Of a DNA stretch of 23,451 bases, positions 4,026-16,437 are shown one piece after another. The translations under genes were made by a program, and so were the position numbers. Under the pieces are notes generated by a model, which was not told the origin of the DNA, ran no database searches, and saw only the letters and a program-made list of their open reading frames with translations. This DNA is from Larix sibirica (Eukaryota > Streptophyta > Pinopsida > Pinales > Pinaceae), in assembly GCA_004151065.3 (NCBI GenBank), contig NWUY0300103499.1, positions 1 through 23,451 on the forward strand, written 5' to 3'. Position 1 is the first letter of the stretch. The number at the start of each line of letters is the position of its first letter.

Positions 4026-4911
4026 TTGTTTGTGACCCAGCAATGTAATATTTTCTTTTCCATTGGCCCTCATTTTCAAGGCACATTGTTGTGTGATGTT
4101 ACTCCACTAGATTACATCGACTTACTGCTAGGGATACCTTACCAACATGAGTGTTATACCACGTATGCTTATCACACCAACAATACATACACTCTCACTA
4201 AGGATGGTCGACACTTTGGATTCCACTTATCTACTACTTCCTCTCTAAAAACCCTATCAAGTAATGATGATGTATGCCAAGTCACCCTTCATAAATGTTT
4301 ACATCTGTGTTTCGAGAAGCTAAGCCTGATCAACCCCCCCCCTTCCTTCACATTACTAAAACCCCTCCTCTGGGCTACCACTTTGTCATGCCCATGGCAT
4401 ACCAAACATACCATTGAAATTTTGCTTAGTGCTCCTCTTCCCAATACCCACCCCTATCATTTGACCCCTACCGAGATAAATGAGATTGACAATTAGATTT
4501 AGGCATTGCTACACATTGACAAGATTCATGCTAAATCCTCACCTTGTGGTTCGCCTACCTTTATTATCCCTAAGAAAGAAACCTATGAACAACAACTAGT
4601 CATTATAGAGCTCTCCATAAGGTGGCCATCAAGAATAGATACGCATTGCCTCGTATTGAGGATTGGTTGGACCATTTATAAGGTGCTAGTTAATTTTCAA
4701 AGTTGGATCTAACTTTAGGATACTATAAAGTTATAATGAAGGAAACTGATGCATGGAAGACAACGTTCAAGACCAAATATGGGCTTCATTAATGGTTGGT
4801 TTATGTCCTTTGGTCTCACCCTGCCCTTGCTACTTTTATGAGACTCATTAATGACCTATTATGTCCCCACCTTAGACATTTTTTCATTATTTATTTGGAT
4901 GATATCTTGAT
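4026..4911 (+). pseudogene. Gypsy pol, first part: protease C-terminus and RT fingers/palm
   Basis: The frame at 4026-4496 carries the protease-to-RT linker. CDVTPLDYIDLLLGIPYQ matches the Gypsy pattern 'CDV-PLD---LLG-P', and it ends with HTIEILLSAPLPNTHPYHLT, the conserved segment before RT. RT then runs through SSPCGSPTFIIPKKE (about 4530-4580), NRYALPRIEDW (shifted frame, about 4632), KLDLTLGYY (about 4702), ETDAWKTTFKTKYGLH (about 4744) and ATFMRLINDLLCPHLRHF to the catalytic YLDD at 4892-4903, which is intact. Several frameshifts and stops occur. The retropepsin active-site region upstream (about 3850-4000) is too degraded to place. The frame is cut at 4911 by the nested Penelope-like element and resumes at 6694. 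Confidence 0.88.
4899..4911 (+). repeat. Left target-site duplication of the Penelope-like insertion
   Basis: ATGATATCTTGAT, identical to 6694-6706. It is the Gypsy RT coding sequence directly after YLDD, duplicated when the nested element inserted. Confidence 0.9.
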
Positions 4912-5294
4912 TGTAAAAAGATTATGGATTGGACTGTGTTTGGATTTAGAATTCCCAACATTTCGAGTGGACACTCCACCCATCATCAGGGGAACGGACC
5001 AAGCTCGTCATAATGTGGAAAAGAGTGGAATTCAAGTAGCTAAATAGAGCTTAAGAGTAATGACCATTGAATATATAATAAAATAATAAGGTCGGTTATG
5101 AGAGTAGAGAGGACATAATAAGTAAATCAAATAATTATTAATGAATTAAAGTTAAATAAAAGTAAAATACGAAAAGAGGGGAAATTGATTACAAGCTAAG
5201 AGTATGTTTGTTAGATATTAGTTAGGAACGGGTGAATTAAGAGAAAAAGTAAAAGTTAATTAAGAATTGGTTGATATAAGTATAATGAGGAAGA
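4912..5294 (+). repeat. Left inverted terminal repeat of the Penelope-like element
   Basis: It begins TGTAAAAAG directly after the target duplication and pairs along its length with the reverse complement of 6268-6661, at about 80-85% by eye with small indels. Strongly shared blocks include ATTGGACTGTGTT, GACCAAGCTCGTCATAAT, GAAAAGAGTGGAATT and ATAAGTATAATGAGGAAGA. On the coding (minus) strand this is the 3' terminal repeat and carries the hammerhead-like fold. Confidence 0.9.
4950..4995 (-). ncRNA. Hammerhead-ribozyme-like motif in the terminal repeat
   Basis: Read on the minus strand (sense of the element): GTTCCC, then CTGATGA, an 18-nt segment, GAAA, TGTT, and GGGAAT. Core strands CUGAUGA (4989-4983) and GAAA (4964-4961) match the hammerhead consensus. 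The segment between them forms a 7-bp stem (GGGUGGA with UCCACUC, one G-U) closed by GUG, with one extra U after CUGAUGA. GUUCCC and GGGAAU pair as a 6-bp helix I at the right place for a type I hammerhead, with U as residue 17. Helix III would be a single A-U pair at best, so activity of this copy is doubtful. Hammerheads are established in Penelope-like elements. The right arm keeps stem II only with wobble pairs and has lost CUGAUGA. Confidence 0.5.
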
Positions 5295-5504
5295 ATTAAT
5301 TAAGAAACACATGATCATTTAATGTGAGAGAATTAATTATAAGCTAAGTCAACAATTATACTAGAAGGGGGAAGGAGGGTTTATAATTGGACTAAAAAAG
5401 AAGGGGAGTAGAGAGCAAGATGAGGATGCACAGAGGTCACGAAGGGAGGATAGAGAAAAGAGGAAAGTATAAATTAGGGTTACTTTCTTTGATGGAAGTT
5501 TAAT

Positions 5505-6288
5505 TAATGGATAATGGGTTTCAAGGATTAACTAAGCTTGTAGCCATCCTCACGATTAAATCTGTGAGGATGTTTTTCAATTTCAAGGAATTCTCGGACG
5601 AGGCAAGTAGAGTAGTAAGGTTGGGCGCCAAGGTTCTAGCTTAATCAAAACAAATGAGGTGTTTGGTGGTGAAGGAGTGCTCGATGATCACAAATTTTGA
5701 AAGACGACTATGATAAGCATTCACCATGTGTTCTGTTAGCCTTGTTTGGATGGATCTTCTTGTCTGCCTGATGTAGGATTTGTCGCATGAACAAGGGATT
5801 TGGTAGATGCCTTGGGAAAGAAGTGGGTATGATTTGTCTTTGACAATACGAAATAATTGTTTAAGAGTTTTGTGAGGTTTGAATATGGTTATGATATTCT
5901 TTTTGGACAAGATTTTGAAGATATATGGTCCCTGATGCCACAAATATGAGGCGAGGAGATAAGAGAGGGGAGAGGGTTATCAAGGGACTTTTGGGGTTTA
6001 GGATGAAGGGAAGGCTGAAAAGCTCTATTGATTTGGGTCAAGGAGAATCCATTAGCCAGGAAGCATTTGGTAAGATGGGTTATTTCGAGATGGAGATGTT
6101 GTGGATCAAAGATGTAGATATAATCCCTATAGATTAGGGTTTTATGCACTAGATGTTTTTTAGCAAGGTGGTGGTGGGATTGGGCATGCAAGTATGTGTC
6201 AGTGTGGGTTTTCTTTCTATAAACTTTATGAGAAAGGGAGGCATCGAGTTGATGGGATACTAGGACATCTTCCTCATTATACTTATAC
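5505..6288 (-). pseudogene. Penelope-like RT thumb and GIY-YIG endonuclease, broken
   Basis: Minus-strand reading begins at the arm boundary with VLVSHQLDASLSHKVYRKKT, then HTDTYLHAQSHHH, matching the VYRKPTHTD-YL---SHHH segment of Penelope RT. ITHLTKCFLANGFSLTQIN follows. After a frameshift near 5900-5940 come IITIFKPHKTLKQLFRIVKD and then GIYQIPCSCDKSYIRQTRRS, which is the GIY-YIG nuclease of Penelope elements, with its Cys-x-Cys and EH residues. The catalytic-motif glycine after YI is Arg (YIR for YIG), consistent with one G-to-A change. Beyond the stop at 5641 another frame continues with REFLEIEKHPHRFNREDG (about 5540-5595), the usual C-terminal end. The enzyme would nick target DNA and prime reverse transcription; this copy is dead. 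Confidence 0.88.
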
Positions 6289-6661
6289 CAACCAATTCTT
6301 AATTAACTTTTACATTTTATCTTAATTCACGCATCCCTATCTAATCTCTAACAAACACACTCAACTTCTAATAAATTCCCCCCCTTTCCATTTTTTTATT
6401 TTATTTTATTTTTATTTAAATTTTAGTTCATTAATAGTTAATTTGGTTTACTTATTCTATCATTTCCACTCTCATAACAAACCTTGTTATTTTATTATAT
6501 CTTCAACAATCACTACTCTTAAGCTCTGTTTAGCTACCTAAATTCCACTCTTTTCCATATTATGACGAGCTTGGTCCATACCCTCTATGATGGGTGGAGT
6601 GTTCACTAGAAACACTGGGCATTCTAAATCCGAACACAGTCCAATACAAAAGATTTTTACA
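6268..6661 (-). repeat. Right inverted terminal repeat of the Penelope-like element
   Basis: It is the reverse complement of the left arm and starts abruptly at 6268, where similarity to 5294 ends and coding sequence begins. It is slightly longer than the left arm through A-rich and C-rich expansions near 6375-6420. Confidence 0.88.
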
Positions 6662-6693
6662 AAATTACTAACTATGAAAAAATACACTCTAAT
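6662..6693. other. Extra terminal tail of the Penelope-like element
   Basis: A 32-bp AT-rich segment lies between the end of the right arm and the right target duplication. It has no counterpart at the left end, so the two ends are asymmetric. It may be a short tail of the element or filler DNA added during insertion. Confidence 0.6.
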
Positions 6694-6706
6694 ATGATAT
6701 CTTGAT
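6694..6706 (+). repeat. Right target-site duplication of the Penelope-like insertion
   Basis: ATGATATCTTGAT, identical to 4899-4911. Gypsy RT reading (DILIFNKTWVEH) restarts here. Confidence 0.9.
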
Positions 6707-8901: not shown

Positions 8902-9151
8902 TGATATGAATTCCAAGAGAGAGGAAATAATATGAATTCCAAGAGAGAAGTTGGAAGACAATAGTGCTACAACATAATAATGCATTTAAGAAGTAGTTAG
9001 GTTTTATTATTAAAATAAAGGGGATGACACAGTCAAAGTAACTACCCCTTTTTTTAATATGCCTATAAACGAAGGTTTGAGTTATGTAAGAAATTAGTTT
9101 TTGGACTTAATAGAAGTTTTAGTTTTACACTCTTTATTATGCTTATATATC
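8902..9151 (+). repeat. 3' LTR, first tandem copy
   Basis: A 250-bp LTR copy from TGATA to ATATATC(A). It differs from the second copy mainly by an internal 25-bp duplication (GAGGAAATGATATGAATTCC, then AAGAGA, repeated at 8895 and 8920). Elsewhere the two copies are about 96% identical by eye. Confidence 0.9.
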
Positions 9152-9154
9152 AAA

Positions 9155-9165
9155 TGGGGAGGAAA
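9155..9165 (+). other. Polypurine tract, second copy
   Basis: TGGGGAGGAAA occurs again, immediately after the first LTR copy and immediately before the second. The duplicated unit is therefore PPT plus LTR, not LTR alone. Confidence 0.85.
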
Positions 9166-9390
9166 TGATATGAATTCCAAGGGAGACGTTGGAAGACAAT
9201 AGTGCTACAACATAATAATGCATTTAAGAAGTAGTTAGGTTTTATTATTAAAATAAAGGGGATGGCACAGTCAGAGTAACTACCCCTTTTTTGAATATGC
9301 CTATAAATGAAGGTTTGAGTTATGTAAGAAATTAGTTTTTGGAGTTAATAGAAGTTTTAGTTTTACACTCTTTATTATGCTTATATATCA
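9166..9390 (+). repeat. 3' LTR, second tandem copy
   Basis: A 225-bp LTR from TGATATGAATTCC to TTATATATCA, with perfect 6-bp terminal inverted repeats TGATAT and ATATCA. It is the best-preserved of the three LTR copies. Confidence 0.92.
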
Positions 9391-9696
9391 ATAAAAACTT
9401 CCTCAGGGGGACATTAGGGAAGAAACTATTTACCCTCTGGCATATCCACATTCTACAACGAGCATCCTCTCTAATATAGTGGGTAGCTTATCTATCGTTA
9501 GAGATGTTGGCTTTTGAATCTACCCCTATAATAATAACATAAAATGGAAATGTTACAAGAGATCTTGGAGGACAAAATAAAAGGTAATTAGTCAATCACC
9601 AATAAGACCTCTCTCACTTTGGGATGAATGCTTCTCTGATTCAAGGAAAGTGTCCTTAAACTTATAACAATATTTAGTGTAGATTGTGTACTCATC
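9391..9696. other. Unassigned DNA right of the Gypsy element
   Basis: No reading frame, RNA gene or repeat could be supported here. Confidence 0.5.
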
Positions 9697-14276: not shown

Positions 14277-14461
14277 CGCTTTCATTAAATGTCGACTGCA
14301 ATGGAAAACAACAAAAAAAATTACATTTTTGTCAACACACACCCACAAAAAAAAATATCATACGAGGAAAGTTTGCAGATTTCCAGTAGTCTTCTTCGGA
14401 CAAAGGTCCGATTCTCATCTTCCCGTCAGTGCACGAGCATAGCTTTACTTCCCACGGTTCC

Positions 14462-14926
14462 ATGGAAGGCAAAGAAAGCAGGTCCTCCGTTGCCATTGGC
14501 GATGGAGGAGGGGGCGTTTTGCTCACCAAGCCAGCCCCCTCCCGGCCCTCATTAGCCCTCCCTCCTCGCCCCGAGGGGGGTATAGGCATCAGCAGCATAA
14601 GCCCCGGTCCCATGACTCTGGCCTCTTCCTTCTTCTCCGACCACGACGCCGATTCCGAATGCAAGTCCTTCTCGCAGCTCCTGGCCGGCGCGATGGCCTC
14701 TCCTCCCCCCGCTAAGGATACTAAACCCACGGTTACCACCACCACCAGTTCCTCACAGCCCACACCCCCTCATCCTCCCCCTCCCAAGGGGTCTTCCTGT
14801 AGCGCCAAGTTCAAGTGCATGCCCCCCTCCAGCATTCCAATTCCCCGCTCTCCTTTTCTGAGTTTACCTCATGGCTTGAGCCCCAGCACGCTTCTGGATT
14901 CCCCTATGCTCTTATCCAACTCACAG
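14462..14926 (+). CDS. WRKY: Group I WRKY transcription factor, exon 1 (N-terminus)
   Basis: The first coding exon gives 155 codons from ATG 14462 to the donor CAG|GTCAGT at 14926/14927, phase 0. Group I WRKY proteins are nuclear DNA-binding regulators of defence and stress with two WRKY domains. This exon shows their conserved N-terminus. SRPSLALPPRP is at about residues 27-37. Residues 47-80 include SPGPMTLASSFFSD and KSFSQLLAGAMASP, as in the WRKY3/WRKY4 type. A Thr/Ser/Pro-rich linker follows, then the proline-directed phosphorylation cluster SPFLSLPHGLSPSTLLDSP near the end, the region MAP kinases target in group I members. The exon is strikingly GC-rich against its surroundings. A GTG-headed extension upstream is in frame, but ATG 14462 fits where similarity begins. 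The WRKYGQK domains are not in the window, so the gene is partial. Confidence 0.92.
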
Positions 14927-16437
14927 GTCAGTTTTCTCAACTGGGTTTTAGAAAATCGGATACAATTCTGTTGATGGGAATTTTTTTCGTTGGAAGTCAT
15001 GTCTGATGAACTATGCTCCTCATAAAATCATGTTTCTCTGGTATGTTTGGGTTGAATTTGAGCTTTCTGAATTGAGTTCCGCATAATAATTTTTTCCTGT
15101 TTAGGGTTTGGCAGTGGGTTTTTTCTATTGGATCGATGGATTATTGTTGGAAAATTCGTTTTGATGTCGGGGGCTGAATTTGTATTTTCTGAACATCGTT
15201 TAGCATGGAAACGTTTTTATTTCGATTGTTTCTCTTTGATTGGATCATGGGATAGCACTGGGACTTTGTTTACTGGGATGAATTTATGTTTTCTGGTTTT
15301 GGGTTTGCTTAAAAAATATAAATTTTTTAAGGTTTTTGCAATGATCTTTTTATTAAATTCATGGACTAGTGCAGGGAATTTGCTTTTTTGGTTTGAATTG
15401 AGATGTCTGCCCCGATGCAGCTGTGGCCTTCTTCACGCCTATTTGTATTTTTCTCGTTTTTGCTGAAAGATTGCGAATTTTCTATGTGTACTCCTTTGTT
15501 ATACAAAATTATCATACAGTGTATGAAAAGTTGAGAAATGCGTGTTCCTGCTTTATCTTGCTTTACCTTTTATCTTTGCTGTTTGCTTTTATCACCTTAA
15601 ACAATGTTAAAAGTGCTTTATTTTGTTTTAATGACCAGCCTTAGAGAAATTGTTCAATTTGTGCATTGAAGCCATTTGGAAAAAGGAATTGCTGACTTTG
15701 TGTGCCCAAACTGCCTTCCAAAAACAAAATCTGATTTTACATTCTTAGGTTGTCATTTCGTGGAAGGATTGCAAAGTTTAAGTGTTCACATTTTTGACTT
15801 GTATGTAAGTTTATGAAAATTGTGGTATATATAATATAATATCTATTATAATAATAAAACATGTTATATATAGAATCTTATATATGTGTGCGCTTCCACT
15901 TAGATAAATGCAAATAAAATTTAAACCAATCTAGAAATTTGAAAAAAAGACTAGATTTTAAAATCCCTTTACTGATTGATCTGTCACACGAAAGAGTTTA
16001 TTTTATAGATATAGATAGGTAATTCCTATAATTTAATTTATAAATTTTCAGAACATATGTGTAATGGCTTGTACATGTCTGCTACCTCAGACTGGCACGA
16101 GAATGCAGCTGAATTTTTCTTGAATCTGTTTTGAAGGAAAGTACATGAGTATTTGTTGTTTATTGGATATCCTTGATCAGTCCTGAATTGTATATCCGTG
16201 AGTTGTCCAACTGCTGCTTTTGGTTCAGAAATCATGAGAGTTTAAATATTCTTTCAATAACTTTAAAGGGAAAAGGTTTCCATGAAAATTATTTTCCACG
16301 AACTTTACTACTATGCATGTGCGCAATGTTTGCATTCCAATCGCATATTATATGATATATTAGTCAATTTTTTTTATTGATGTTGCATTTGAAAAGAATT
16401 ATGCTTGACTCAAGAAATATCTGTTGGAAATCAACAG
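14927..16437 (+). other. WRKY intron 1
   Basis: A 1511-nt phase-0 intron with GT donor (GTCAGT) and acceptor TCAACAG. It is T-rich as plant introns usually are, with an AT-dinucleotide-like stretch near 15825-15890. Open frames within it (for example 15128-15466) are T-rich chance frames without family features. Confidence 0.88.

Follow-up and report, generated by a model that had tools for sequence, protein, structure and literature searches.

The window, by which we mean the whole stretch of 23,451 nucleotides that was analysed, contains a nested Penelope-like element, and a short motif in the terminal repeat of this element raises the question of whether it is a hammerhead ribozyme and, if so, what such a ribozyme would do for the element. 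We conclude that the motif is very probably a minimal type I hammerhead ribozyme, with cutting predicted, of an endonuclease (EN)-containing Penelope-like element of the Penelope/Poseidon clade, probably a conifer Dryad. The core in the left arm is intact, the motif is conserved across copies from the same genome, and the anatomy of the locus is that of a Penelope element; we infer that the host is a plant, more precisely a conifer. With this locus, a hammerhead of the Penelope type is on record in an element that probably belongs to a conifer and derives from arthropods.

According to the earlier note, CUGAUGA and GAAA are spaced 18 nt apart on the sense strand of the element, with a 7-bp stem between them and pairable GUUCCC and GGGAAU on the outside. 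Reading the minus strand from 4995 to 4951 bore this out, since its parts are, in order, GTTCCC, CTGATGA, T, GGGTGGA, GTG, TCCACTC, GAAA, TGTT and GGGAAT, the layout of a type I hammerhead (Table 1). All core positions in the left arm (C3-A9, G12-A15.1, U16.1 and H17) carry hammerhead bases. Helix I has 6 bp, one of them G-U, and helix III consists of the A15.1-U16.1 pair closing a loop of two bases, which falls short of the helix III of a type I hammerhead. A9 and the two bases that follow it (4983-4981, minus strand) form an ATG, and the cut is predicted after U17, between 4957 and 4956. In the right arm, the stem II region is as in the left arm, the core reads UCUAUGA, and U16.1 is replaced by C.

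Table 1. Features of the hammerhead-like motif and of the Penelope-like element in the window
Feature	Position	Strand	Basis
Hammerhead motif, intact core, left arm, element 3' end	4951..4995	-	Sequence, descriptor, fold, alignment
Helix I, 5' strand GUUCCC	4990..4995	-	Sequence
Core C3-A9, CUGAUGA	4983..4989	-	Sequence, alignment
Extra U between A9 and stem II	4982..4982	-	T in 39/41 aligned rows
Stem II, 7 bp, with 3-nt loop GUG	4965..4981	-	Fold, alignment pairing
Core G12-A15.1, GAAA	4961..4964	-	Alignment
Minimal helix III loop UG with U16.1 and U17	4957..4960	-	Sequence
Helix I, 3' strand GGGAAU	4951..4956	-	Sequence
Right-arm counterpart, broken core	6578..6622	+	C3, U4, G5, U16.1 changed; alignment, model scoring
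Penelope-like element, 1782 bp	4912..6693	-	13-bp target duplication, inverted arms, RT/EN fragments
Target site duplication, left, ATGATATCTTGAT	4899..4911	.	Sequence repeat
Target site duplication, right	6694..6706	.	Sequence repeat
Left terminal arm, short end, +72 from motif ATG	4912..5294	-	Arm comparison
Right terminal arm, inverted, tailed end, +104	6268..6693	+	Arm comparison
31-nt extension, right arm only, read as Penelope tail	6663..6693	+	Arm comparison; cf. PMC3846280
Broken GIY-YIG endonuclease frame	5641..5943	-	Protein relatives
Broken C-terminal reverse transcriptase frame	5889..6191	-	Protein relatives

A hammerhead descriptor applied to both strands of the whole window matched at this place only (4995-4951, minus strand). 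As a chance control, we used 316 Mb of first-order Markov sequence with the composition of the window and with spacing limits somewhat narrower than those of the window scan. The number of random matches expected per window was 0.012 when at least 4 pairs in helix I and 3 in helix II were demanded, 0.0007 for 4 and 5 pairs, and 0.00015 for 5 and 6 pairs, and at the observed strength (6 and 7 pairs) the 316 Mb gave no descriptor match. These low values and the recurrence of the motif across copies, described below, uphold the claim of the earlier note that a chance origin is unlikely.

Folding of the 45 nt gave a minimum energy of -16.9 kcal/mol (z -2.63, with 4 of 200 shuffles equally good), and helices I and II were present in this structure, which adds two pairs within the core and pairs the extra U to G12. 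The strict hammerhead pairing has -15.5 kcal/mol, 1.4 weaker than the minimum. With its flanks (58 nt), the motif reached a z of -1.66, and 14 of 200 shuffles were as good; the right arm, folded likewise, did not adopt a hammerhead-type fold. The probability of the hammerhead pairs depended on RNA length, being about 0.5-0.6 in 99 nt and 0.01-0.12 in 189 and 383 nt. A transcript of the whole window element was rejected as an RNA in which the motif folds internally, as 40 of the 45 motif bases pair with the other arm and none within the motif.

The element that carries the motif encodes a reverse transcriptase (RT) of the Penelope type and a GIY-YIG endonuclease, both as broken frames, with YIR in place of YIG in the endonuclease. 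Five protein relatives of the RT/EN frames were found, down to E 8e-45, and profiles raised the numbers to 267 and 1448 (120 of each listed); a Pfam search of the window gave no match above the cut-off for either frame. Among the matches listed were arthropods, reptiles and the entry PITA_32352, which, judging by its prefix, we take to be from Pinus taeda. P0147, a protein of Penelope type on a contig of 2.6 kb, has the label Escherichia coli and is probably animal contamination. None of the 21 long Penelope proteins that were examined starts with the peptide following the motif ATG, and the start-codon overlap is thus without protein confirmation.

The anatomy of the window element fits two 5'-truncated copies lying head to head, the left one at 4912-6267 (1356 bp) and the right one at 6268-6693 (426 bp), with the joint at 6267/6268 placed where the similarity of the arms ends. 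The target duplications of the window (13 bp) and of one related locus, L106 (11 bp), were longer than all 132 controls (longest 10), and those of the other ten paired loci (5-9 bp) did not exceed mismatched controls. Of 381 aligned sites, 56 are different between the two arms (K2P 0.165); the motif accounts for 11 differences in 45 sites, and the rest of the arms for 45 in 336 (p 0.07). The window copy is an old, broken fossil, because its frames are broken, the motif of its right arm is dead, and its own transcript would fold the two arms together. The frame into which the element is inserted has a YLDD motif at 4892, and we read it as Ty3/gypsy pol. This Ty3/gypsy-like region is flanked by repeats 84-97% alike (2387-2600, 8921-9153 and 9159-9391), possibly LTRs of which the right one is tandemly duplicated. 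Elsewhere in the window, overlapping direct repeats 78-98% alike occupy 287-712, and an open frame at 14429-14974 (plus strand) without a Pfam match includes the stretch LSPSTLLDSPMLLSNSQ, which presumably resembles the N-terminal exon of a group I WRKY factor.

We searched the genome itself (618 Mb, 19,862 contigs) with the 384-nt terminal repeat. The resulting list is a lower bound, because 40 of 102 first-look candidates were scored; it holds at least 43 matches, two of which are the window's own arms. Query bases 310-341, inside the motif (query 300-344), were common to all 41 other listed matches. Along the query, coverage by these 41 rose from 6 at position 289 to 22 at 301 and 41 at 310; 25 of them started at 299-302 and seven earlier. 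Similarity ran beyond the motif, with query 361 covered by 29 of the 41 listed matches and 373 by 18. If 38 short matches were placed at random, the probability that all contain 310-341 would be near 1e-40, a value to be read with the preference of the search for well-kept words. Among the genomic copies found, no part of the terminal repeat is better shared than the motif, and its position is that of published Penelope hammerheads. The proposal of the earlier note, a hammerhead within the terminal repeat of a nested element of Penelope type, is therefore supported as the best reading. DNA copies were also sought in viral_contigs (P0002, A2, A5) and genome_contigs (A5) without a confirmed relative, and motif patterns yielded no relatives in either set. 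The 29 loci matching a 17-letter pattern were discarded as chance, with loose descriptor matches in two (L006, L029) and a best score of 19.4 bits among the ten that were model-scored, compared with 77.9 for the left arm.

The copies for the family alignment were picked by their DNA similarity to the left arm; this alignment, A6, has 41 rows, made up of 39 of the 46 BLAST places in the fetched loci and the two window arms. We dropped the near-duplicates L047, L054, L060 and L064, the plus arm of L056 (duplicate), L051:412 (overlapping) and the plus match of L062 (truncated); alignment A7 and model R1 additionally leave out L051:439. The results showed that the hammerhead base is the majority base at every core position over the 41 rows, the outcome expected of a conserved core in the earlier note. 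C3 is C in 25 rows, G5 is G in 30 and G12 is G in 31, and the remaining core positions are kept in 38-41. These three positions, changed in 16, 11 and 10 of the 41 rows, vary more than stem II. The core is intact in 8 of the 41 rows, the left arm counted, and at least one core change is found in the other 33; among the 39 rows without the window, 7 cores are intact and 15 have core changes only of the types C3 to T, G5 to A and G12 to A. The commonest changes in or beside the core were C3 to T (9 of 41 rows), G5 to A (7), C to T at 11.1 (9) and G12 to A (9), and they fall at a CTG and a CG site. Transposons of Wollemi pine are described as highly methylated in CG and CHG contexts (PMC10473749). 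We read the changes at CTG and CG as decay at methylated C in a plant, a reading that C3 to A, found in six of the 41 rows, does not fit.

The mean frequency of the majority base was 0.88 in the motif, 0.50 upstream and 0.73 downstream. Over 39 rows, the three codon positions were equally conserved (0.92/0.94/0.92), so the constraint does not resemble a coding one. At the place of helix III, the four bases read ATGT in 21 of 41 rows, ACGT in 8 and ACAT in 7; as a suggestion, the self-complementary ATGT and ACGT would allow a short helix III between two RNAs. The extra U and the nearly absent helix III had been taken as possible signs of decay. Since T occupies the former position in 39 of the 41 rows and the lack of helix III is usual for Penelope hammerheads (PMC6155905, PMC7761336), neither marks decay.

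Two proposed checks did not turn out in favour of the hammerhead. At E<=10, Rfam detected no hammerhead in the whole window, in the separate arms or in 20 of the 38 related 1-kb loci, a search run without a known Penelope hammerhead as positive control. Covariation in the helices did not exceed the shuffled level, with 83.5% of cells pairing compared with 84.7% in shuffles and 486 of 500 shuffles as high; two-sided changes occurred in 3 of 13 helix pairs (shuffle mean 2.3). The RNAalifold structure of the 41 rows contained zero compensatory changes, and a different weak hairpin was favoured over the hammerhead pairing. Stem II, preceded by one unpaired U, is paired in 95.1% of cells over the 41 rows. 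Helix I is open and keeps 3-4 bp in the family, with 67.2% of cells paired across pairs 1.1-1.5; past 4 bp it is not conserved, pair 1.5 being unpaired in 29 of the 39 scored rows.

The genes beside the related copies were examined in 34 flank loci, of which 14 showed RT/EN similarity and 20 none. In 12 of those 14 (L076, L078, L081, L082, L083, L085, L087, L096, L099, L101, L102 and L103), the RT/EN stretch is on the strand of a motif and 0.4-1.2 kb upstream of it. L093 and L094, apparently duplicates of one another, have the frame on the opposite strand, as seen for the right arm of the window element. Five independent partner copies were noticed through their RT/EN frame, and the motif was present in four of them (L081, L082, L085 and L103) and absent in L093. 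L083 has no motif as a partner copy, but, being 99.9% identical to L082 over a match that ends short of the motif's position, it provides no separate test. In the contig of L082 and L083 (C7317), a 2975-bp stretch is repeated at 99.9% identity about 6.5 kb apart, possibly through a recent duplication or an assembly effect.

Outward-facing motif pairs were found in the window and in 11 of 36 other sources (L081, L082, L085, L089 and L103-L109). This count omits C16432, a near-duplicate of L104, and retains weak second motifs in L089 (24.6 bits), L105 (35.2) and L107 (34.4). One short and one tailed end were seen in 11 of the 12 paired loci, and L082 is tailless at both ends; inverted pLTRs, head-to-head order and a single tail are the arrangement of EN-containing Penelope-like elements. 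The tail consensus was written after six pairs and the window had been seen, and short (10-15) and tailed (19-45) scores were split by eye; of the five pairs seen only after the consensus (L081, L082, L085, L089 and L103), four have exactly one tail. The presence of a tail on exactly one end in 11 of 12 suggests that priming on the two strands uses different start sites in the RNA. L082, L085, L103 and L078 contain two C-terminal RT/EN fragments back to back and are two 5'-truncated copies joined head to head. Rfam microRNA-precursor models matched L046 (656-809) and L073 (198-410) with low E-values and far below gathering scores; the matches in L046 lie between two inverted motif arms and probably reflect this inverted repeat.

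Conservation of the block could also mean that it is a site where the RT/EN protein binds or primes, or the DNA target of that protein, with a mere resemblance to a hammerhead and no RNA cutting. We consider this improbable, although stem II is conserved more strongly than the catalytic C3, G5 and G12, similarity extends past the motif in many of the listed matches, and the hammerhead lacks an Rfam match and covariation. It also has a precedent in the anole protein, whose binding motif was placed by the authors in the first 172 nt of the ORF (PMC11167929). However, the majority base at all core positions is that of the hammerhead, and the commonest changes in the core region are those expected from decay at methylated C, with C3 to A in six rows excepted. 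Penelope elements in general are moreover described as having hammerheads (PMC6155905), and with protein the anole hammerhead cleaves in vitro (PMC11167929). One block could also serve both roles.

The broken right arm and the 33 rows with a core change could instead indicate that the family has lost its function, with the extra U and the missing helix III as marks of that loss. For single copies, such a remnant is compatible with a hammerhead family, but for the family as a whole we give it a small probability, because the extra U (39 of 41 rows) and the short helix III are the family majority, and hammerheads of other Penelope elements usually lack helix III as well (PMC6155905, PMC7761336). 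That the motif is a chance resemblance in a decayed repeat is hardly credible: the core is intact in one arm only and the z-score of the fold is moderate, but at most 0.012 matches are expected per window and the motif recurs in related copies.

We return to the minimal type I hammerhead and propose how it might work. The motif is located in the terminal repeat, on the downstream side of the EN gene; its ATG (A9-U-G) may start the next element unit. RNA from an active source copy would form helices I and II at the motif, while helix III would be one pair or a short self-complementary AYGU helix between two copies; cutting would follow after U17, perhaps with the aid of the protein that the element encodes, as in the reported case of the anole. 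Both implied RT start sites (+72 and +104) are downstream of the predicted cut, and the RNAs copied into the genome were therefore presumably uncut there, which would agree with the behaviour of PAc, the anole element. If genomic copies come from uncut RNA, the ribozyme more likely separates units, limits templates or removes the priming region than prepares the end of the template, and the role of Penelope hammerheads becomes testable with natural copies that have an intact core. A bolder possibility, which we hold to be unlikely, is that a plant Penelope lineage kept its hammerhead through long divergence, with a fixed extra U, AYGU for helix III, a start-codon overlap and a position between the RT starts and the body. 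Cutting, perhaps only between paired RNAs or on protein binding, would then strip the priming site and act as a transposition brake or copy-counting switch, not as processing.

Minimal type I hammerheads of Penelope-like elements were reportedly described by Cervera and De la Pena in 2014, and the Dryad elements of conifers are said to have been described by Lin et al. in 2016. The window's family shares with the former the type I layout, the location in the pLTR, the missing helix III and the possible action as a dimer (PMC6155905, PMC7761336); it may differ in the extra U that it keeps and in its host, which appears to be a plant. EN-containing Penelope elements of arthropod derivation, the Dryads, are reported in conifers (PMC9370799, PMC9033089, PMC10473749), and the window element resembles them in being EN-containing and in having arthropod relatives and a protein relative that we assign to Pinus taeda. 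In the accessible parts of the open literature on hammerheads in conifers, gymnosperms and Pinus taeda (including PMC6431247), we found no report of a hammerhead in conifer Penelope elements.

In a rotifer Penelope element, inverted pLTRs bound the insert, an optional 31-bp tail is present on one of them, and the duplication has 9 bp; the ORF's first codons are already part of the pLTR, and head-to-head order with a tail on one arm is described (PMC3846280). The window element shares the tail, the inverted pLTRs and the short target duplication with this element. For PAc, the Poseidon element of the anole, C3 and G8 are placed ahead of the start codon, and cleavage 26 bp past it; reverse transcription begins at 111-118 of the ORF, and the stretch separating two start sites forms the tail (PMC11167929). 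The window motif agrees with PAc in that C3 and G8 come before the putative start codon, the cut is 26-27 nt after it (predicted after +27 in the window), and RT would start downstream, at two sites; the difference is that the ends of the window element lie at +72 and +104. In vitro, the PAc hammerhead cuts only with protein and both DNA strands are cut and extended, and catalytic mutants left insertion unchanged (PMC11167929). Priming at both cuts is thus a plausible cause of the head-to-head order. Plant LTR retrozymes are likewise plant retroelements whose terminal repeats contain a hammerhead, but they are mostly of type III and belong to non-autonomous LTR retrotransposons (PMC4918200), whereas the element described here is Penelope-like.
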